From a virus: a stretch of DNA of 28,489 nt. Location of the stretch: the IMG/VR virus record IMGVR_UViG_3300030110_003481, positions 1-28,489 of that record; one strand, given 5' to 3'. Shown here piece after piece: positions 2,488 through 17,771 of the stretch (the stretch's first letter is position 1; every line of letters starts with the position of its first letter). The position numbers and the translations under genes were made by a program. The notes beneath the pieces were generated by a model. That model saw nothing but the letters and a program-made list of their open reading frames with translations, searched no databases and had not been told where the DNA came from.

Positions 2488-2877
2488 TTATTTATTAGTT
2501 ATTAATTTTTTTATTGCATTATCCACACCAGCTATTCCAGTATGTATTTCTTTTCTATAATCCAGACGTTTATCTTTTTGATGGTCTGCAACACCTTCAT
2601 TATTCCATATTATATTTCTCCATAATTTAATCCATTTATAATATGTTTTTGCATTAATGCTGAAATCATCTGTATTACGCACTCCATTCCAAAAACTCAT
2701 TTCTACGTCACGCCACAATAATGAAGAAAATGATTTTTTTAAATCAGTTGCTAAGCTTTGTGCCATTAACACTTTTGTTTTTGCATCTATATTATGCTGG
2801 CCTAAATCAAGATATGTTTTAGACAATAATTCAACACACATTTTTGTTAATTCAGCTTCACTTATTTTTTTTATCAT
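2488..2877 (-). CDS. Hypothetical protein beside the replication initiator
   Basis: The protein has 129 residues and overlaps the end of the winged-helix replication protein by 20 bases. It is helical, with a conserved-looking aromatic core (LLWRDVEMSFWNGVRNTDDF, then TYYKWIKLWRNIIW) and a basic region DHQKDKRLDYRKE. No Walker motif is present, so it is not an ATP-dependent helicase loader of the DnaC type. By position directly after the initiator it could be an accessory replication factor, but that is inference only. I do not recognise the family. Confidence 0.65.
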   Translation of the reverse strand: MIKKISEAELTKMCVELLSKTYLDLGQHNIDAKTKVLMAQSLATDLKKSFSSLLWRDVEMSFWNGVRNTDDFSINAKTYYKWIKLWRNIIWNNEGVADHQKDKRLDYRKEIHTGIAGVDNAIKKLITNK

Positions 2878-3529
2878 TATCTTGTATTTGTTTCAATATT
2901 TGCATTGCTTCATTATGTGTTTGTAAATGCTTATCAACTTTGCTTATTCCTACGCTTTTTAATGCCCATTTACTTTCGTTTTTAGCCCATGTTTTTAAAC
3001 GCCTTTCTGTACTCCAAGTTTTTTGTAAATCTTTTCGCATCTGACCTTTTTTAGTTGGCTCACTCCAATATTCATAAAATTCTTTTAATAAATTTTTATC
3101 ATATTTTTTAAAACTAAAAACTTCATTAAAAAAAATAATTTTATTATTGCCTTTATATAATTTATTTTTTATTATATTATTATTTAATAGGCTTTTATTA
3201 TCCACATGTGGGTTTTCCAGTTGTGGCTTATTTAATAATGGTGATTCATAAACAGTATAATCTATGCCGATAATTATACCTTTTTCGTTTTTTATTTGTT
3301 GCCTTTCAACATAATTAAAAGTAATTAACTCATTCATTGTTGACCTTATTGCCGATTCACCTTCTTTTAAAATAGTAACTAAACCTTTTATATTTAATTT
3401 CCAAGAATCACTAAAACTTAATAACATAGCTAATAAACCTTTTGCTTTTAACGATAACCTTTTGTCCTTAAAAATCCTATTACAAATAGTAGTATAATCT
3501 TTACTTTTTATAACTCTAACTATGTCCAT
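2858..3529 (-). CDS. Winged-helix replication initiator-like protein
   Basis: This is a 223-residue protein. Residues 1 to about 85 have the pattern of the winged-helix domain found at the start of phage replication/replisome-organiser proteins. It shows an early IVRV strand, then RLSLKAKGLLAMLLSFSDSW, then IKGLVTILKEGESAIRSTMNELITFNYVERQQI, which forms the recognition helix and wing. A low-complexity Asn/Lys-rich linker follows (about 95-135). The C-terminal part, with LLKEFYEYWSEPTKKGQMRK and KTWSTERRLKTWAKNESKW, is typical of the tail of such phage proteins. The expected role is to bind the phage origin and recruit host replication proteins. No helicase or polymerase is encoded nearby. Confidence 0.75.
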   Translation of the reverse strand: MDIVRVIKSKDYTTICNRIFKDKRLSLKAKGLLAMLLSFSDSWKLNIKGLVTILKEGESAIRSTMNELITFNYVERQQIKNEKGIIIGIDYTVYESPLLNKPQLENPHVDNKSLLNNNIIKNKLYKGNNKIIFFNEVFSFKKYDKNLLKEFYEYWSEPTKKGQMRKDLQKTWSTERRLKTWAKNESKWALKSVGISKVDKHLQTHNEAMQILKQIQDNDKKNK

Positions 3530-3530
3530 T

Positions 3531-4343
3531 TTAAAAAAGTATTGTTTGATCTTTATTATATTTTTTATTTTGCCTTATTTTAACATGGCTTTTATCTTCC
3601 CACCCCTTTTTATCAGCATACCTTATAAATTGTGGGAATTTAGATGTTAAATATTCACATTCCTGTTTTTTTTGTTGCATACGTTTTTTTATACTACCAA
3701 AAGCACCAGCTGTATATCTTTTACAATTAGGCAACAACCAATTATTTATTACAACACCACCAAATTTTTTTAAATTTAATGCTGTAAAACATGTATCATC
3801 TATTAATTGTACATTAGTATCAAAAAGTAAATCAGTTTTTTTTATTAACCAACACCTACCATCTGCTAAACCCCAATAGCTGTATTTTTTATCCCTAAAT
3901 AATGGGTTATCAGTTAAACTAAAACCACATAATGCATAATTTTTTTGTTCAGCATGTTTTATAGTTTCATTAGCTATTTGTATAAAATCATTTGGGCTAC
4001 ATTGTTTTTTAAATTCTTTACGGAAATGTTTTACATTATCAAAATCACAATTAATTTTTTCTATATAATTATTATAATTATTAAGCATTGTTATGTTTAT
4101 TAAATCATCTACAAAAAAAATAGCCCATTCATTTGTTTGCATCATATTTAAAGCAAAATTTCTATTGTTACTAAGCCCTTTTGGTTCATTAGTTGCAATA
4201 ATATCGCCAAATATATTGCCAGCTTGCAAAAACTTTTGTTTGGCTTGTTCTGTATGGCACAAAATAGTGTGTTTAATATTTTTAAAATATTTACTTGTTG
4301 TTATGCTATCATACCTATCGTATGTAAATATAAATATTTTCAT
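3531..4343 (-). CDS. TET-associated glycosyltransferase (TAGT-like, DNA base modification)
   Basis: This 270-residue protein has a GT-A-like organisation. It starts with a strand MKIFIFTYDRYDS and a conserved NEPKGLSNNRNFAL segment near residues 53-65. The metal/nucleotide-sugar site candidate is FFVDDL (Asp79-Asp80). Further on are YWGLADGRCWLIKK (156-169), LIDDTCFTALNLKKFGG (180-196) and a terminal RYTAGAFGS turn. Its ATG overlaps the stop of the TET/JBP dioxygenase gene by 4 bases (ATGA), so the two are translated together. Phage glycosyltransferases in this setting are predicted or shown to add sugar to hydroxymethylated pyrimidines in DNA. Sugar identity and base target cannot be read from the sequence. 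The call rests on fold-like motifs plus the fixed pairing with the dioxygenase. Confidence 0.75.
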   Translation of the reverse strand: MKIFIFTYDRYDSITTSKYFKNIKHTILCHTEQAKQKFLQAGNIFGDIIATNEPKGLSNNRNFALNMMQTNEWAIFFVDDLINITMLNNYNNYIEKINCDFDNVKHFRKEFKKQCSPNDFIQIANETIKHAEQKNYALCGFSLTDNPLFRDKKYSYWGLADGRCWLIKKTDLLFDTNVQLIDDTCFTALNLKKFGGVVINNWLLPNCKRYTAGAFGSIKKRMQQKKQECEYLTSKFPQFIRYADKKGWEDKSHVKIRQNKKYNKDQTILF

Positions 4344-5203
4344 ATTGTGTAAAAACCTGTTTTTTCCATTTTAATATTATGCAATTCATCTTTTGGTTGT
4401 TTACATTTATACATATATTCCCTATAATATAATACAAAACTAATGCGCATATAATCATCAGATTCGTTATATATAGGAGTATTACCATGATATTTATGTA
4501 CATCTACAAATAATATATCAGTATTGTGTAAATCAATAGCAACTTTATATTCTGGTAAACAAAAAAAACCGCCTTCATAATTACCTTCCCTGTAAACTAT
4601 TAAATTGCCAAAACCTTCATTAAAATCACCGCTATCTTTATGTACAGCTGTAACAAAATTTTTATTTACAGTTACAGTTGTAAAACTTGTATCAGCTATA
4701 ACATAATTTTTATTTGTTCCTACTGCTATTGCTTTTTGTTTGTTATAATATGGCTCACACAATTCTTTATATTTTTTATCTATAAATTTTACAAATGGTA
4801 TTCCTTGTTTAAATTCATCAAAATATTTCCTAGCAAAAGCAGTTTTTCTGCAATATTTAACCATAGCATTTCTATCCATGTAACCTACATTTCCACTTTG
4901 TACTTTATTACCAACTGTTATATTGCTTATAGAACCATCTTTACGTATCCTTTTATGGCTACTTCCACTTGTTATACCTCTTCCTTCTGTCCATTCTATA
5001 CTTTTTTTAAAGCTTTCGTAACCATTTTTTAATATTTCAAATGGAATAACATTTTTACGAAATTTAAATAACAATTTACCATTTAAATCGTATGCATCAG
5101 TATTTTCATTAATAAGTAAATCGTAACTATTTTGTTTTAAAAATTTACCTTTTAAATTATCCCCGTTTTTAATTTTCTTATCTAATTTAATTATTTTGGT
5201 CAT
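4340..5203 (-). CDS. TET/JBP-family 2-oxoglutarate/Fe(II) DNA dioxygenase
   Basis: This 287-residue protein is predicted to hydroxylate the 5-methyl group of a pyrimidine in DNA. The double-stranded beta-helix signature is complete. The proximal iron ligands are His188 and Asp190 in AVHKDSGDF. The distal histidine is most likely His239 in VDVHKYHGNTP. The 2-oxoglutarate-binding arginine is Arg253 in MRISFVLYYRE. Upstream is the family-typical region GYMDRNAMVKYCRKTAF (107-123) and a helix ending LCEPYYNKQ. A GRGITSGSSHKRIRKDGS stretch (74-91) precedes it. The length fits stand-alone phage members. It overlaps a 74-residue protein upstream and the glycosyltransferase downstream. No DNA methyltransferase lies next to it, so thymine or host-made 5-methylcytosine are both possible substrates. 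Confidence 0.87.
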   Translation of the reverse strand: MTKIIKLDKKIKNGDNLKGKFLKQNSYDLLINENTDAYDLNGKLLFKFRKNVIPFEILKNGYESFKKSIEWTEGRGITSGSSHKRIRKDGSISNITVGNKVQSGNVGYMDRNAMVKYCRKTAFARKYFDEFKQGIPFVKFIDKKYKELCEPYYNKQKAIAVGTNKNYVIADTSFTTVTVNKNFVTAVHKDSGDFNEGFGNLIVYREGNYEGGFFCLPEYKVAIDLHNTDILFVDVHKYHGNTPIYNESDDYMRISFVLYYREYMYKCKQPKDELHNIKMEKTGFYTI

Positions 5204-5411
5204 ATTTTTTTAATATATATAATAACAAATCTGATAGATTTCCTTTTTCATGAGCATTTTGTTTATAAATTTTATGCATTAATTTTTTGCATAATATTTT
5301 AAATGTTTTTAATTCTTCTTTACTAAAATATAATATAGTTGTTGTAATTTCTGTATCATCATATTGGCTTTTATCAACACCCCAATCATCATCAAATAGT
5401 TTTAAGCCCAT
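5187..5411 (-). CDS. Hypothetical protein upstream of the TET-like gene
   Basis: This 74-residue ORF overlaps the HTH gene upstream by 10 bases and the dioxygenase gene downstream by 17. It has an acidic N-terminus (LFDDDWGVDKSQYDD) followed by a strand-like TEITTTILYFS. Two helices come next (EELKTFKILCKKLMHKIYKQ and LSDLLLYILKKY). The strand-helix-helix order is reminiscent of a ribbon-helix-helix DNA-binding protein, but the match is loose and I do not assign it. Position suggests it could be an accessory of the modification pair; nothing in the sequence proves that. Confidence 0.6.
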   Translation of the reverse strand: MGLKLFDDDWGVDKSQYDDTEITTTILYFSKEELKTFKILCKKLMHKIYKQNAHEKGNLSDLLLYILKKYDQNN

Positions 5412-9647: not shown

Positions 9648-12600
9648 TTATCCTTCAAAAGCCGCTATTGTCCTTGTTACAGTTGTTCCACCGCTATCGG
9701 TCATTTTAGCTTTTATATTTCCATTTGTGTCCATCCAAATTATTGATTTATTATTTGCTGGATTTGCTGGGTCTGTTTGAGCTGTTAATTCTAATACAGC
9801 ATCTAATGTTACTTTCTTTTGTGTTCCACTTGTTGCTGTAACTCTTGGGTCAAACCTAGCTATTTCAACTTCACTAACACCAGTTGTTGAGCTATTTCCA
9901 CCAATAGTAACTATTCCACCACTTGTTGCAGCACTATAAATACTTCTATTTGTTAGCATTAATAAATCACTTCCACCTACTGTTCCAGCCGCCCCAAATT
10001 TTAATCCATACCTATTATTTCCAGCTTCGTCATTTAATGTAAATCCATAATCTTGTGCAGCTTGTATTCCACCACCGACAGCTCTAATAACTCCATTAAC
10101 GTATAAAGGCACACCAACATCAGTTGTTGTATTTATTAATAAGTTTTGAGAAACATTTACAGTTTCTTGGCTACCATCTAACGTTATATATGCTGTTTGC
10201 CCACCTAAACCATCATCGCACTTAAGCACTAAATCAGCGTTATCAACATTTTGAGTTATAATTAAATTTCCACTTGTATTTTGAGTTGCAATAATACTAT
10301 TAGTTCCATCGTTATATATAAGTAAATCAGAATTAGTACCGAATACAGCTTTTACATTGTCTTGAAATTCTAATCTGTCTTGACTTGCGTCCCATAACAA
10401 ATCTCTACCAGATGTATCGCCATAAAACTTAACATCACCATCTACTTGCAGTTTACTAGAGCCATCGTCAGTTGTTGTTCCAATGAGTACGTTTCCTCCA
10501 GATGTTAAACGCATTTTTGTTGATTCATTAGAGCCATCAATATCTCTGAATCCAAAATTTATGTTTCTATTAGCAGTAGTTTCAGAATCTAATGTAATAT
10601 TTATTGCATGACTTGTAGATGATAATTCGTCTTGCTTATGATAAATTCTTGCAATACCATCATCAACATCAAAATTTAAAGTTTCTAGTTCATTTCGTCC
10701 AATGCTTAATCTAGGATTTGCAGTTGCATCATCTTTAAAAATATCTATACTTTCAAAAAAACCTCTACCAGCTACTTGTAAAATACTTGAAGAACTTAAT
10801 GCACTTGCAGTTGTTGTTCCAATAAGTAGATTTCCGCTAGATGTAATCCTAGCTTTTTCTGAGCCTCTTATGTCAAATTGTATAGCTGAGTTATTAGATA
10901 AAAAATTTGGGTCATTACGAAATCTTAAAATACCATCATTTTGTTCAATTAAAGAGTTATCCGCTGTATTTGTAGCATCTGTATCTTGTAATTTTATTCT
11001 TGGAAATAATCCAGAAATGTGTAGCATTTGGTCTGGACTGGTCGTTCCTATTCCTACGTTTCCAGAACTACCTTCAACAAAGAAAACTTTATCAGTATTA
11101 TCAGTATTTATTCTAAAATCTACGTCTAATTGTGCATCATTAAAAAATATTGTTTTATTAGCCGCAGCATTAACACTTAAATATGTGCTTGTAGCTTTAA
11201 CAGTTGCTATTTCTGTACCAGCCCTATCAAAAGAAATAAAATCACCACTATCTGCTTTTTTCAATTGTAGCTTTGCCCCACTATCAGTTGTTGTTCCAAT
11301 TAGTACATTTCCACCAGATGTCAAGCGCATTCTTTCAGTATAATTTGTAGAAATTACAGCATTACCACTTGACGAGCCAATTCTAACTTGGTCGGCAGTA
11401 GACGCATTGTTTGAAAATGAAACAAAAGAATTATTGCCAGAAGCACTTCTAAAATCAGCTACCATGCTTGAGCTTGATGCATGTACATTTAATGCTCTAT
11501 TAGTTGCTGGTGTTCCAGCACCACTTATAATTGATGTGTTACCATTTACATTTAACTTAGCTCCAAAATCACTAGTTGTTCCAATTAGTACGTTAGATGT
11601 TCCAGCATCAATTCTCATTACTTCTGTATTGTGTGCTGTAAAAATTATATCATCCGCAGTTCTTGTTGTTAATAATTGTAAATTATTAAATCTAGATTTT
11701 ACAACACTATTAGTTGTATCTCCACCAAGCTCAATTATTCCAGAATTTTTATTTCCTAACCTTAAATAATTAGTATTGTTATCAACATAAATCCCTTTAT
11801 TATTTTGTACTAAAATATCACCATGCACTTGTAGTATATAATCGCCACTTGTATCTTCACTAGTTTGTCCAATAAGTAGATTTCCTCCAGATGTTATTCT
11901 AGCTAACTCATTATTATTTTCAACAAACCTCCAGCCATTTGTATCTAAAAATAATTTTCTTGAATTGTCTTGTGTTTTAATATAACCTTCACTTGTTGCA
12001 GTAGTGTTTCCACCAACTTCAAATCCATTAATTCTAGCATGAGCATAACCATTGCTATTAGTGATTACTAAAGGAGTAAAATTACTTGGAAGAATATCTA
12101 CTGTACTATTTGAATCTACAAATCTACCTCTACCAACTACATCTAATGTTCTTGCTGGGCTGGACGTTCCAATTCCTACGTTATTAGTATCTTTTTGTAA
12201 AAATAACCCATCATTACTATCAGCTTTAAAATGCAAAGAGTTCCAACCTGAAAACCCAGTATCAGCACCAGAAATTTGGTAAACATCCGTTGACACAATC
12301 CCAAAAGCAATACCAGTTGATGAATCACCAAATCTTGCATTTCCATTTACTTCTAAAGGTACATTAGGGCTTGTCGTTCCAATTCCTACTTTAGAAGTAG
12401 AATTATTAATCCTCATTGTTTCGCCACCTCCAGAATCTAAAAATCTAAACGTATTTCCATTAAATGTTCTTACAAAACCTCCAGTTGAATCGCTACCAAA
12501 CCAAGTAGCTCCGCCATTACTAATTTGCATATTTCCACCAACCAAATCTAATTTATATGCTGGACTGGCAGTACCTATTCCTACGTTTCCTTCATGTGTA

Positions 12601-15600
12601 AATCTTACTTTTTCAATTAATGACCCAGCGGATGTGCCATCAGGAAAATCAATAGTTATATCCCCAGATGTACTTCCACTTGTACTATCTAAAACACCAA
12701 AAATTCCACCAATAGAATATTCATTATATCCACCAAATTGTAAACCATATTTTTCACCAATAGTTCCACCAATATTATTTATAAATAAAGCTGTATGAGT
12801 ATCTTGAACTGAATTAGTTATTCTAACTGGCTGACTAGTTGTAATTGCATCACCTTTGATTGTTACTAATGCCTCTGGACTAGTAGTTCCAATACCTAAG
12901 CCAGTAGATGTCAAACGCATTTTTTCACTAGAGCCAATATTATGTACTATTGCAGCACTTGAGCCAGATTCAATAGTTATATTTTGAGCTGAAGAAAAAT
13001 AACTTGACCTAATTTTTCTTGTAGCAACACCATCATTTCCATCTACTCTTATTTCAGTATCTACATGCAATCCAACACCACCAGCTGGAGCTGATGAACT
13101 ACCTATTCTAATACTATTTGTTGTTGTGTTACCATTATCAGTAACTTCTTGAAGCGTATCGGCACTTCCAACTTGAGCGTCTACATAAGATTTACTTGCA
13201 GCATCAGTTGCGGCTACTGGAGTTGCTGGTATTGTTACTTGGTCTGTGAATATACCTTTACCAACAACATGGAGCTTTTCTGTGGGGGAATCAGTATTTA
13301 TACCTACGTTATTTCCACCAGTTCTGTTTAATAAAACGTGACCATCTCTTGCTGAAACATAAGCTGTTCCATTGTTTGTTTTTAATTCAACATCAGAATA
13401 TGTTTGATTTGTTTCTAATCTTGCAATACCAGAAGTTGTATCATAAACATGCAATCTTTTACTTGCACTTGTTAATCCTAAAGCCAAATCACCATCAGAT
13501 GTAAGCCGCATTTTCTCACTATTATTTGTGTTGAATGCTATTGGTTGTGTTGCTAAGGTTGTAATATCTAACGAATGGCTACCAACTAAACTGTTATAAC
13601 CAAGAAAAGTGTGTTGAGTTCCACTTAATGAATAGGCACTTATAATTTTTGTAGTAGCTACATTATCTCCACTTACAACGTGTAATTTATTACTTGGGCT
13701 AGTAGTTCCAATTCCAACGCCAGTATCATTTATATAAAGTTGAGTAGTATTTGTATTTGTGTTTTTAAAATTCCAAGTTCCACAATCACCAGTTAACCTA
13801 CTTATAGTTCCAAATAAAATACTACCATAACAACCATTTGTAGTATGAGATACTTGTATTACACCAACATCAGCATTTCCTACTACATCTAAAGCTGAAC
13901 TTGCATTAGTTGTTCCAATTCCTAAGCCAGTAGATGTCAAACGCATTTTTTCAGTAGTTGAAATTGTAAATCTTATATCTGACCCATTGATTAATAAAGG
14001 ACTTGAAGCACTAAAAGCATCATTATATGAAGAAATTCTTGCTAAATTACTACTTGAATTAAAACCAATATTTTGGTCTGTTCCAACATTTATTTGCAGT
14101 TTTGAATTTGGGCTAGTCGTACCAATTCCAACTCCAGTTGTGTTTAATCTTATAACATGGCTATTACTGTTATCAACAGACATGTGTATAAAATCACTAC
14201 TTTCATCACCAATAATTTTAACTCTTCCAATATTAGAATCAAGTGTAGAAAAATAAATTCCTTTAGAATTATCTAACCTAATATCACCACTAGCAATATC
14301 TAATTTTTTTTGAGGGCTGGAAGTACCTATTCCTAAATTACCTCCAGTTGTCAATCTCATTTTTTCCCCATTAGCTTCAAAAATATGATTACCACTTTGA
14401 GTTAATTGATGAGCTGCAACACCATCTCCATTTTGTAACATTAAACCAGCACTTCCACCTCTTAAATAAATAAGGTTATTTGAATGCAAACCTATTTTTG
14501 CACTACCTATACTAAAATTTGTACTTGTAAATGATATTCCATAAGAGGTACTATTTCCATTTGCTGTAACTTCTTCAAGTGTATCAGCTGTTCCAACTTG
14601 AGCATCAACATAGGCTTTTACACTTTCGGCTGTTGGAACATTATTTGCAGTAGCACCACTCATTGTATCACTATCAAGCCAACCAGTTATTTCAACACCA
14701 CCTTTTGCAATACCATCAGCATCAATAGTAAATCCAGCAACTGTTCCTTTTGTTTTGTTTTGGTATTGTTCTGATAAGTCATCTTGGTTTATAAGTAAAA
14801 CAGAATTTTCTGCAATATCATCATATAATGGAACAGCTGTAACACTTATTGTATCATCAGACGCCCCTTGATTTGATGTTACTGTTAATGGGATTATTTC
14901 ATCACCAATAGAATTTACAATATTAAAAGTATCGCCAGTTTTAAATACAGTATTTCCTATTACATTTATTGGTAAACTACTTAATGATTTTTGATCTCTT
15001 GCTGTTATATGTTTTATTGTTCCAGTAAATGTTGTTCCAGCTTGGAATTTTATTAAGTTTGACCCTTCACAATTTAAATAAATACTATAATCACCACTTG
15101 TTGTTATTGTTTCAGTTGTGCCGCTACTACCAGCTTTTACTAATAAACTTCCAGCACTTACAACAACTGTAAAATTAATTTGATATGTAAGCCCTTGCGT
15201 TAAAACTGATTGTGTTAAATCACTTGTTGAGCCAGTTGCTGTAAATGATGCTTTTTTTGCAGTTGTATCTATTGACCAACCAGCACCTAGCGTCCAACCA
15301 GTAGCAACATTAAAGTTACCATTAACAGCAACGTCTGATCCAGTAGCTGGAACAGTAGCCCTAACATAAGCAACTGGGCTGTTCATCATTAAAGCATTTG
15401 TAACTGGTCCTTGTATTTTTGCATTGCCTAATGGGTTATCTATTTGGCCGCCACCTAAACCACCCATGTTAGTTGTAGTTGTTGTAGTAGTTGGTGTATC
15501 TCTAAGAATTTGATAACCTTCATAATCCCATTCATCATATAATGTGTAAAAACTTCCTCTTCTGAAAATATATTCTGGATCAATTTGTTGGCTCCTACTT

Positions 15601-17771
15601 TCTCTTAATCTACCTATTGGATTTACATATCTTGGCCTTGTTGCTGAACCACTTTGACCAGTTGCAGTTTGGTTTTTATTTAACTCGCCAACTGCTAACC
15701 TCATTGTTGGTGCAATAGCAACTTTAACTTGGCCAGTCATAAATTCATCTATTAATAATTCAGTAAATGTTTGTGTTCCAGTTAATGTACCACGCCCCCA
15801 TTTACCATCTGGGTCTGTTTTAACAAAAGAACTTCCATTATTTACCCTCAAACCACCTACCGCAAATTGTTGTACAGCATCACCCCAAAGTAATGTACCA
15901 AAACTGTATATTTCTGTGTTGCTATTATTATTAATTTGTGTATTTACAGATTGACCAAAAGTTGCATTTTGTGTTACATTTAAAGTTTGTAAAAAACCTT
16001 TAAAAGAACTTAATGTTGCTAATCTAATATCATCTTGGTTTGTGCCAGCATTAAAACCAGCTGGGTTTAAAATTGTACTTGGTACAGCAATTGCGGTTGG
16101 GTCTTGTAATGTATTTGACCAACTAACTGTTCCAGATTTAATTGGAACACCAAGTGGGCTTACAATTGTTATATTATTATTAGGGTTACGCATTTTGGTT
16201 GGCGTACCATAACCATTATATCCACTAAAATTGCAATAAAATGAACCAGGATTGCTTCCGCTTGTTCCGTAATCTTCAATGTCTAAGAAAAAACTCCAAG
16301 CACCATTCATAGTAATAGCACTTCCAGAGCTATCTACAAAAGACAATTGTTCTTGAAAACCTATGTAATTAGTTTCAGTCAAATTTCTAGATTTAACAAC
16401 ATATCTAGGAGATGTATTCCCTAATGGTGACCAATCAGCTTCAAGTACCCAATAATAAGCCCCTGTACTAGAATCGTATTGCAAATAATAAGTTGTTGTG
16501 CCATCACTTGCATAGAAATTAAATTTTATAGAACACCACCAACCATTCGTATGGCCATTTGATAAATTATAATTTCCAGAACCAGCTTGCGACATATCCC
16601 AAACCCAGTTTAATGGTATAGAAAGCCAAATAAAATTAGCAGAAGATGGGTCTATAATTGTGCTTTGAAATATTTCCTGACTAGTTGCATTTGTACCATA
16701 AGGAAAACCACCATAATAATTTTTTCCTGCAAAACTTAAAAAATCAGCTGATACTCTATGAATTATTGGTAAATAATTATATTTAGTTCCAACTAATTTA
16801 CTTACCTGATTATTTGCAATAGTTTGCTCATACCTTGTATAATATGTATCGCCTAAATGATCTTGACTACCTTGATAAGCACCAAACCTATTATATTGCC
16901 TAGAGTTAATGTTATCAGGGTTATCTATTAAGCCAGCTTCGTCTTGTATATATTCTGGTATTTGTACTATCCATAATTCATGTTTCCAATATGTAATTCT
17001 TGCACCCCAATGCCTAAGTAATTGTTTTAAAACAGTATAACAATTTTCTGGCGTATAAACATCTTGATCATTTTTTGTGTGGAACATAGAAACAATACAT
17101 TGTGTTAAAGCTAAAGGATCACTACTTTGGCTTGTGCTAGTCATTGTTTCATTATACCAATTTATAGCAGTTGTAAAACCCCAATCAATTGATACACCTT
17201 GCGATGTTGTTGCAAAGCCAGCTTTCCCTAAAATTTCTCTAATCCAATATATATATGTAGCTGGTCCGAAATACATGTTATCTTGCGTATAACTTCCCAT
17301 TATGTTAGTTTCTGAGCCAGAATTTGATAAATCAACAAAATCAATATCTTTTAGTAATGATAACCCATCAACAAAAGTTAATTTTTGTTCATAAGGGAAG
17401 CTAACATCTTCACCAGCACCTAAATCCATTACTAAAAAACCAGACCAAATTGGTTTAACAGAACTATATCCACTACTATTAGCCCTATATAAATGCAGAT
17501 AAACTTGTCTTTCTTGATAAGTTGTACGCAATAATTGTATAAATGATTGAGTTCCAGTTCCTTGTACCATAAAAGGTAAAACACATTGAGAACTTAAAAT
17601 AGGTGAAAACCTATCTTCTTGATCAGTTTCGTAGGTTATAACTGGTCCGCCAGCACCAAGTGTTATTTCAGATGGATTGCCACCTGTATAACCATCAACA
17701 AATATCTCTAGATAATATTCTAAGTTATTACTACTTTTATATGAAGAATAATACTGTTTTGCAAACGCCAT
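9648..17771 (-). CDS. Giant tail tip / tail fibre protein with GIGTTSP-type repeats
   Basis: The protein has 2707 residues, more than a quarter of the window. Residues 1 to about 755 are a structured part with many aromatic residues (YLEIFVDGYTGGN, WIREILGKAGFATTS). This is the type of protein that replaces separate Dit/Tal tail-tip genes in Bacteroidetes phages. A Thr-rich, Gly-rich linker follows at about 758-775. At about 805-930 is a carbohydrate-binding-like beta-sandwich (NGNFNVATGWTLGAGWS, YQINFTVVVSAGSLLV). Two related AYVDAQVGTADTLEEVT-type segments lie near 1055 and 1535. From about 1134 to 2560 there are some 17 repeats with EKMRLTS...GNVGIGTTSP...KLDVVG. The end (KSIIWMDTNGNIKAKMTDSG) is typical of marine phage fibres. 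It should mediate host recognition. It follows the tape measure gene by 3 bases. Confidence 0.85.
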   Translation of the reverse strand: MAFAKQYYSSYKSSNNLEYYLEIFVDGYTGGNPSEITLGAGGPVITYETDQEDRFSPILSSQCVLPFMVQGTGTQSFIQLLRTTYQERQVYLHLYRANSSGYSSVKPIWSGFLVMDLGAGEDVSFPYEQKLTFVDGLSLLKDIDFVDLSNSGSETNIMGSYTQDNMYFGPATYIYWIREILGKAGFATTSQGVSIDWGFTTAINWYNETMTSTSQSSDPLALTQCIVSMFHTKNDQDVYTPENCYTVLKQLLRHWGARITYWKHELWIVQIPEYIQDEAGLIDNPDNINSRQYNRFGAYQGSQDHLGDTYYTRYEQTIANNQVSKLVGTKYNYLPIIHRVSADFLSFAGKNYYGGFPYGTNATSQEIFQSTIIDPSSANFIWLSIPLNWVWDMSQAGSGNYNLSNGHTNGWWCSIKFNFYASDGTTTYYLQYDSSTGAYYWVLEADWSPLGNTSPRYVVKSRNLTETNYIGFQEQLSFVDSSGSAITMNGAWSFFLDIEDYGTSGSNPGSFYCNFSGYNGYGTPTKMRNPNNNITIVSPLGVPIKSGTVSWSNTLQDPTAIAVPSTILNPAGFNAGTNQDDIRLATLSSFKGFLQTLNVTQNATFGQSVNTQINNNSNTEIYSFGTLLWGDAVQQFAVGGLRVNNGSSFVKTDPDGKWGRGTLTGTQTFTELLIDEFMTGQVKVAIAPTMRLAVGELNKNQTATGQSGSATRPRYVNPIGRLRESRSQQIDPEYIFRRGSFYTLYDEWDYEGYQILRDTPTTTTTTTNMGGLGGGQIDNPLGNAKIQGPVTNALMMNSPVAYVRATVPATGSDVAVNGNFNVATGWTLGAGWSIDTTAKKASFTATGSTSDLTQSVLTQGLTYQINFTVVVSAGSLLVKAGSSGTTETITTSGDYSIYLNCEGSNLIKFQAGTTFTGTIKHITARDQKSLSSLPINVIGNTVFKTGDTFNIVNSIGDEIIPLTVTSNQGASDDTISVTAVPLYDDIAENSVLLINQDDLSEQYQNKTKGTVAGFTIDADGIAKGGVEITGWLDSDTMSGATANNVPTAESVKAYVDAQVGTADTLEEVTANGNSTSYGISFTSTNFSIGSAKIGLHSNNLIYLRGGSAGLMLQNGDGVAAHQLTQSGNHIFEANGEKMRLTTGGNLGIGTSSPQKKLDIASGDIRLDNSKGIYFSTLDSNIGRVKIIGDESSDFIHMSVDNSNSHVIRLNTTGVGIGTTSPNSKLQINVGTDQNIGFNSSSNLARISSYNDAFSASSPLLINGSDIRFTISTTEKMRLTSTGLGIGTTNASSALDVVGNADVGVIQVSHTTNGCYGSILFGTISRLTGDCGTWNFKNTNTNTTQLYINDTGVGIGTTSPSNKLHVVSGDNVATTKIISAYSLSGTQHTFLGYNSLVGSHSLDITTLATQPIAFNTNNSEKMRLTSDGDLALGLTSASKRLHVYDTTSGIARLETNQTYSDVELKTNNGTAYVSARDGHVLLNRTGGNNVGINTDSPTEKLHVVGKGIFTDQVTIPATPVAATDAASKSYVDAQVGSADTLQEVTDNGNTTTNSIRIGSSSAPAGGVGLHVDTEIRVDGNDGVATRKIRSSYFSSAQNITIESGSSAAIVHNIGSSEKMRLTSTGLGIGTTSPEALVTIKGDAITTSQPVRITNSVQDTHTALFINNIGGTIGEKYGLQFGGYNEYSIGGIFGVLDSTSGSTSGDITIDFPDGTSAGSLIEKVRFTHEGNVGIGTASPAYKLDLVGGNMQISNGGATWFGSDSTGGFVRTFNGNTFRFLDSGGGETMRINNSTSKVGIGTTSPNVPLEVNGNARFGDSSTGIAFGIVSTDVYQISGADTGFSGWNSLHFKADSNDGLFLQKDTNNVGIGTSSPARTLDVVGRGRFVDSNSTVDILPSNFTPLVITNSNGYAHARINGFEVGGNTTATSEGYIKTQDNSRKLFLDTNGWRFVENNNELARITSGGNLLIGQTSEDTSGDYILQVHGDILVQNNKGIYVDNNTNYLRLGNKNSGIIELGGDTTNSVVKSRFNNLQLLTTRTADDIIFTAHNTEVMRIDAGTSNVLIGTTSDFGAKLNVNGNTSIISGAGTPATNRALNVHASSSSMVADFRSASGNNSFVSFSNNASTADQVRIGSSSGNAVISTNYTERMRLTSGGNVLIGTTTDSGAKLQLKKADSGDFISFDRAGTEIATVKATSTYLSVNAAANKTIFFNDAQLDVDFRINTDNTDKVFFVEGSSGNVGIGTTSPDQMLHISGLFPRIKLQDTDATNTADNSLIEQNDGILRFRNDPNFLSNNSAIQFDIRGSEKARITSSGNLLIGTTTASALSSSSILQVAGRGFFESIDIFKDDATANPRLSIGRNELETLNFDVDDGIARIYHKQDELSSTSHAINITLDSETTANRNINFGFRDIDGSNESTKMRLTSGGNVLIGTTTDDGSSKLQVDGDVKFYGDTSGRDLLWDASQDRLEFQDNVKAVFGTNSDLLIYNDGTNSIIATQNTSGNLIITQNVDNADLVLKCDDGLGGQTAYITLDGSQETVNVSQNLLINTTTDVGVPLYVNGVIRAVGGGIQAAQDYGFTLNDEAGNNRYGLKFGAAGTVGGSDLLMLTNRSIYSAATSGGIVTIGGNSSTTGVSEVEIARFDPRVTATSGTQKKVTLDAVLELTAQTDPANPANNKSIIWMDTNGNIKAKMTDSGGTTVTRTIAAFEG
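12895..12927 (-). repeat. 33-base direct repeat, copy 1
   Basis: This 33-base block is identical to 13921-13953 and lies within the fibre gene repeats. It encodes the E-K-M-R-L-T-S-T-G-L-G segment. Perfect identity over 33 bases between otherwise diverged units suggests recent duplication or gene conversion. Confidence 0.8.
13921..13953 (-). repeat. 33-base direct repeat, copy 2
   Basis: Identical to 12895-12927. Recombination between the two copies would remove 1026 bases (342 codons) in frame. Confidence 0.8.

Follow-up and report, generated by a model that had tools for sequence, protein, structure and literature searches.

Phage pathways that combine a TET-type dioxygenase, a C5-methyltransferase, and a glycosyltransferase (GT) were reportedly outlined by Iyer et al. 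in 2013. In such pathways, TET/JBP enzymes stand beside TAGT-type GTs and other decorating enzymes. According to the account of Burke et al. 2021 given in PMC12730594, the phage TETs act on 5-methylcytosine (5mC) beside a co-encoded C5-methyltransferase. The locus analyzed here shares this pairing of a TET with a TAGT-type GT but departs from those pathways in three respects: it has no C5-methyltransferase, a branch of 1.9 substitutions per site lies between its TET and the methyltransferase-linked TETs, and it carries an arginine (R261) where those enzymes have Asp. It also resembles the base J pathway of kinetoplastids (JBP1/JBP2 plus JGT), in which a TET/JBP oxygenase is followed by a DNA glycosyltransferase, and both would be methyltransferase free if the substrate is thymine. 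Unlike that pathway, ours belongs to a phage, its TET has no recognized J-binding domain, and its use of thymine is a prediction. A third likeness is to the α-glucosyltransferase of phage T4, which glucosylates DNA and binds the T4 sliding clamp, gp45 (PMC13216743); clamp binding is predicted for our GT. T4 has its own clamp and hydroxymethylcytosine (hmC) nucleotides, whereas the bacterial-type motif of our GT points to the clamp of the host. Both protein families, and the occurrence of a TET and a TAGT in one phage, are already known.

The stretch of DNA analyzed (the window), from a small marine bacterial virus, comprises the 28,489 nt of an IMG/VR record, in which we found no exact terminal repeat, and a few bases may be missing at its ends. 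Its two syntenic contigs, 26.7 and 27.4 kb long, start at the same point as the window, just 5′ of the small terminase gene, and all three end just past an HNH gene. That three independent assemblies have one common end junction suggests that they are near-complete linear genomes. More than a quarter of the window (9648 to 17771) is taken up by a single open reading frame (ORF) of 2,707 amino acids with many GIGTTSP..KL repeats, which is probably a tail or host-recognition protein. The nearest isolate is the cultured Nonlabens phage P12024L, which bears out the original prediction that this is a flavobacterial-type phage. Genes P12024L_25 to _28 include the same small upstream gene, a TET 72% identical to that of the window, and a GT with a clamp-type tail, and the 35.7-kb genome likewise has no C5-methyltransferase. 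The two phages differ in the GT, which in P12024L is a canonical TAGT that BLASTP did not significantly relate to the window GT, and in the gene behind it, which in P12024L encodes a QxxLF-tailed N6/N4-type DNA methyltransferase. The features of the window locus are as follows.

5187 to 5411, minus strand: small conserved protein, 74 amino acids, overlapping the TET start; 30 relatives with 55 to 66% identity lie immediately upstream of TET
4340 to 5203, minus strand: TET/JBP-type Fe(II)/2-oxoglutarate dioxygenase, 287 amino acids, from Pfam and fold matches
4634 to 4642, minus strand: H188-x-D190, Fe(II) ligands, (near-)invariant in the family and aligned with the HxD of TET2
4625 to 4627, minus strand: D193, three residues past D190, (near-)invariant in the family
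4487 to 4489, minus strand: H239, distal Fe(II) ligand, from the family alignment and the TET2 profile alignment
4445 to 4447, minus strand: R253, 2-oxoglutarate-binding arginine, from the same two alignments
4421 to 4423, minus strand: R261, at the alignment column of TET2 H1904
3531 to 4343, minus strand: GT-A glycosyltransferase of the TAGT structural group, 270 amino acids, from model, fold, and PHROG matches; it starts inside the last TET codons
4104 to 4112, minus strand: VDD (residues 78 to 80), metal- and nucleotide-sugar-binding acids of the GT; D79 and D80 are invariant in 14 relatives
3534 to 3548, minus strand: QTILF, the C terminus of the GT (residues 266 to 270), a predicted sliding-clamp-binding motif and the sole terminal match among the 39 ORFs of the window
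2858 to 3529, minus strand: replication-initiator/DnaD-like gene (PHROG 4707, E = 3.5e-19), directly downstream of the GT gene

The original prediction had described proteins of 287 and 270 amino acids whose ORFs overlap by 4 bp, and we recovered both on the minus strand with these lengths and positions. The 287-residue protein matched Pfam Tet_JBP with an E value of 1e-21 (77.3 bits against a cut-off of 34.9). Because of this match, and because the two genes stand next to each other again in an independent phage contig (G026, locus L034), where TET is 70% and GT 68% identical to the window proteins and the 4-bp overlap recurs, the ORF pair is not a product of chance. A single-sequence search of the PDB returned nothing useful for either protein. 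A fold search with the AlphaFold model of the TET (pLDDT, 80.6) gave as its best match NgTET1, the Naegleria TET1, in complex with 5mC DNA (E = 2.8e-12), and also CMD1 and TET2, all with a probability of 1.00; as the model matches solved TETs, the protein falls inside their double-stranded beta-helix fold. Moreover, the family profile found human TET2 in the PDB (E = 7e-7), with the iron- and 2-oxoglutarate-binding residues aligned. The catalytic residues that had been singled out from the sequence (H188, D190, H239, and R253) are correctly placed, agree with TET2, and are unchanged across 24 relatives. The Pfam scan gave the oxygenase domain alone, and a JBP-type J-DNA-binding domain was not found. 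Judged by its sequence and model, the 287-residue protein is a TET/JBP dioxygenase, for which oxidation of 5-methylpyrimidines is predicted.

The 270-residue protein scored below the cut-off of the Pfam TAGT family (PF20691; E = 0.026, 14.9 against 27.5 bits), as did its close homologue in L034, and matched PHROG 842, the beta-glucosyl-HMC-alpha-glucosyltransferase family, with an E value of 3.7e-8. Its AlphaFold model (pLDDT, 89.8) has a GT-A fold, and the fold search also returned polysaccharide synthases. The closest viral models in BFVD were uncharacterized phage proteins (TM scores of 0.79 to 0.88), followed by named TAGT-domain proteins (TM scores up to 0.73, E values down to 6.5e-15). 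The VDD motif noted beforehand is present as V78-D79-D80, and both acids are unchanged in 14 glycosyltransferases. The model and its TAGT-domain matches support the earlier identification of the protein as a GT-A glycosyltransferase, and on this basis we place it in the TAGT group by structure and only marginally by sequence. Neither tblastn against phages nor a single-sequence scan of IMG/VR detected relatives of the GT; these came to light through the gene neighborhoods of TET.

A scan of IMG/VR for the TET family yielded no fewer than 580 confirmed stretches. Nearly every close relative has a gene of 71 to 90 amino acids that overlaps or lies just before the TET start. Its 74-residue product in the window has a conserved LF..D(D/Y)WG-like N terminus and matched no Pfam family, so that the description "ribbon-helix-helix-like" rests on inspection by eye. 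From its conservation ahead of TET, we predict that it is a third part of the module, and it may guide or regulate TET. Thus, of the two-gene module proposed originally, the pair stands, but the pair is not the complete module. Nor is its compactness remarkable, as had been supposed: loci of this abundant family usually consist of a TET and one to three decorating genes. What follows TET varies and includes several TAGT types, a 151-residue EIKND protein, and a P-loop kinase; in locus L035, a radical SAM enzyme and a 309-residue protein stand behind TET while the flanking genes are unchanged. With the small gene and TET fixed and the content behind them variable, the locus appears as a conserved core carrying an exchangeable decorating cassette. 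The replication-initiator/DnaD-like gene, syntenic in L034 and L035, is a conserved flank that takes no part in the chemistry.

Several neighborhoods deserve mention in their own right. The pair that replaces the GT in L035 (6858 to 8736), a radical SAM/SPASM enzyme and the 309-residue protein, which belongs to no known family, is a candidate for a new base modification; each of the two carries a terminal QxxLF. In many flavophages, TET is separated from the decorating enzyme by a GIEIKND protein of 151 to 154 residues, nuclease-like by eye and without a Pfam family, in most cases with QxxLF at its end (L019, 2652 to 3107; L014, 6877 to 7341; and others). A second, unrelated glycosyltransferase of the Gly_transf_sug family adjoins the TAGT in L029 (7006 to 7665), which suggests a disaccharide on the base. 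Lone TET/JBP relatives with 28 to 35% identity (L196 to L198) occur in a Winogradskyella MAG, a Pirellulales MAG, and a Streptomyces africanus contig.

We compared the TET class of the window (class A, methyltransferase free) with a C5-methyltransferase-linked class seeded with the TET of Methylophilales phage Melnitz-3 (class B). A C5-methyltransferase was present in 65 of 71 class B loci, nearly always overlapping or adjoining TET; the remaining six loci are truncated near or within TET by the end of the contig. Conversely, none of 112 class A loci had one within 300 bp of TET (Fisher test, 5e-43, although both samples include related phages and the counts overstate their independence). The window, the syntenic contigs G026 and G027, and the complete P12024L genome contain no C5-methyltransferase, and whole IMG/VR records of class A had one over the cut-off in 6 of 33 and 1 of 50 cases. 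A thymidylate-synthase-type hydroxymethylase was absent from the window and its two syntenic relatives and from 21 of 22 class A records, the exception being the thymidylate synthase homologue of Cr30. The branch between the classes has a support of 0.97. Ten alignment columns tell them apart, among them that of R261, which is Arg in 94 of 95 methyltransferase-free TETs and Asp in 25 of 27 methyltransferase-linked ones; D193 is conserved in both. ADDT, an amino acid:DNA transferase (PF18724), was found in 29 of 50 class A records and in none of 50 class B records, and these proteins weakly match "alpha-glutamyl/putrescinyl thymine pyrophosphorylase clade 3." Divergent class A members carry clusters in the order ParB, TET, GATase, GNAT, ADDT, and P-loop kinase. 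Two such clusters (L083, 4376 to 8238, and L105, 4358 to 7831), which run from a ParB-like gene through TET and a GATase, GNAT, or FAD protein to ADDT and a kinase, probably make amino-acid-type hypermodifications without a hydroxymethylase.

The window GT ends in DQTILF, and the extreme C terminus of its model has low confidence, as a flexible tail would. QxxLF is the general clamp-binding motif of bacteria (PMC12309361), and bacterial clamp partners carry a C-terminal QL(S/D)LF (PMC9690074). In class A loci, exact terminal QxxLF was found on 75 of 412 ORFs downstream of TET, compared to 5 of 1,028 elsewhere (Fisher test, 6e-37), and on none of 102 TETs. In the close clade, a looser tail pattern was present on 38 of 39 glycosyltransferases, 10 of 11 kinases, and 22 of 26 EIKND proteins; after clustering at 60% identity, it remained on 10 of 11 glycosyltransferases and all 6 kinases. 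Of the close loci, 50 offer 1.5 kb or more of room, and in each of them one or more proteins behind TET end in QxxLF. These enzymes belong to about seven unrelated families and include radical SAM, 309-residue, and N6/N4- and C5-methyltransferase proteins without detectable mutual similarity. In the complete P12024L genome, the tail occurs on the TAGT and the methyltransferase alone; among more distant class A phages, it was seen in 2 of 42 loci. No gene for a bacterial-type beta clamp is present in the window or in the two contigs syntenic with it. In T4-like phages (L125 to L195, of the Melnitz type, L004, and L005), TETs and glycosyltransferases end in acidic-hydrophobic tails, for example NLEDFL, SLDEFF, or LGDFFV, which resemble the gp45-binding tails of T4 and may reflect a parallel origin of clamp tethering.

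We consider it very likely that the TET and GT together hypermodify DNA, the joint role first proposed for them. The explanation that best accounts for the data as a whole, and that we hold with modest confidence, is a postreplicative pathway with thymine as the base. The TET-type enzyme would act on a pyrimidine that is already part of phage DNA and hydroxylate its 5-methyl group, and the GT, translated from the same message, would move a sugar from a host nucleotide-sugar to the resulting hydroxymethyl. The QTILF tag would dock the GT on the beta clamp of the host DNA polymerase III, near newly made DNA. Direct oxidation of thymine would lead to a sugar-bearing 5-hydroxymethyluracil that resembles trypanosome base J, and the bulky base would shield phage DNA from nucleases, which we infer to be those of restriction or CRISPR systems. 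Nuclease protection is the usual purpose of hypermodified bases.

The original prediction had read the substrate as cytosine, which now appears doubtful: the window and its two syntenic relatives have neither a C5-methyltransferase nor a pyrimidine hydroxymethylase, and their TET class is not linked to such a methyltransferase. The absence of a cytosine-methylating enzyme makes thymine the probable base. With no hydroxymethylase either, no source of the hydroxymethyl other than TET is apparent, and thymine, as a methylated base, is present in any case. In phages M6, ViI, and phiW-14, thymidine hypermodification proceeds through 5hmdU in DNA, which a DNA kinase phosphorylates (PMC6449724). The same pathway could instead act on cytosine, with host 5mC (in other strains, phage 5mC) converted by TET to 5hmC and then to glycosyl-hmC at host-methylated sites only. 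This alternative, which we regard as less likely, accords with the use of 5mC by the phage TETs of Burke et al. 2021 (as related in PMC12730594) and with D193, common to the methyltransferase-linked class. A C5-methyltransferase over the cut-off is also encoded by 70 of 150 genomes of the candidate host family, a bacterial family that contains Winogradskyella, and by the 6 of 33 relatives mentioned above. Against it stand the 112 loci without an adjacent C5-methyltransferase, an enzyme that TET of the other class almost always overlaps, the roughly half of flavobacterial genomes that have none at all, and the restriction of ADDT genes, of the thymidine-hypermodification kind, to the TET class of the window. 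We rejected the P-loop kinase as proof of hydroxymethyluracil, since close homologues also lie beside methyltransferase-linked TETs; ADDT alone is diagnostic. D193 and R261 were likewise rejected as a substrate test: R261 splits the classes, yet neither residue separates thymine from cytosine. The NgTET1 Asp equivalent to D193 reads the cytosine amino group, and D193 may do likewise. The conservation of D193 thus argues for cytosine, and R261, too, might serve as a donor to cytosine N3. In T-even phages, known relatives of the TAGTs are active on hmC-linked glucose (PMC13216743). Given that D193 and the kinase occur in both classes and that TAGTs occur in hmC phages, our preference for thymine, with a base-J-like product, is a restrained one. 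Restriction experiments are on record for one TET phage, DLP6 (PMC5349666).

The tail bears on a single step and is compatible with either base. We think it likely, from the motif and its distribution, that QTILF tethers the GT to the host sliding clamp, and QxxLF on decorating enzymes predicts modification coupled to replication through that clamp. The tail might instead be a C-terminal habit of one lineage that serves, for example, to bind the small upstream protein or TET. Its limitation to one phage lineage would fit such a role: more distant TET phages lack it on their kinases and on almost all of their glycosyltransferases. We find this improbable, however, given the exact match to the QxxLF consensus (PMC12309361), the C-terminal position shared with bacterial clamp partners (PMC9690074), and the tails on DNA methyltransferases (the N6/N4-type P12024L_28 and the C5 enzyme of L018). 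The T4 α-glucosyltransferase and gp45 are a precedent that makes the clamp reading plausible, and in T4 clamp binding is not the main determinant of the share of glucosylation by this enzyme (PMC13216743). It is far less probable still that the two proteins work apart, with TET erasing host 5mC marks or oxidizing alone and the GT acting elsewhere, for example on glycans of the surface or on a structural protein of the phage. Phages commonly encode GT-A enzymes, and the polysaccharide synthases among the fold matches would suit such a role; however, the translational overlap and co-conservation of the two genes, the TAGT-type fold, and the radical SAM genes that take the place of the GT at the same spot all speak against it, as does the clamp-type tail, which makes sense only with a DNA substrate.

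To our knowledge, two elements are new: a clear methyltransferase-free class of TETs with thymine-type neighbors, and clamp tails on its decorating enzymes. We tentatively propose that bacterial viruses make base-J-like DNA, in which a widespread class of methyltransferase-free TETs hydroxylates thymine directly in DNA and feeds hydroxymethyluracil to interchangeable glycosyltransferases, kinases, ADDTs, and radical SAM enzymes that, in flavophages, are held by QxxLF on the clamp and follow the replication fork. A phage origin of the JBP thymine hydroxylases has, as far as we know, been a hypothesis only; if the proposal is true, the methyltransferase-free class would be the phage counterpart of those enzymes. 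The clamp-tail pattern provides a sequence rule by which phage DNA-modifying enzymes of unknown chemistry may be recognized, and it offers a mechanism by which a 28-kb phage could modify its DNA during synthesis.
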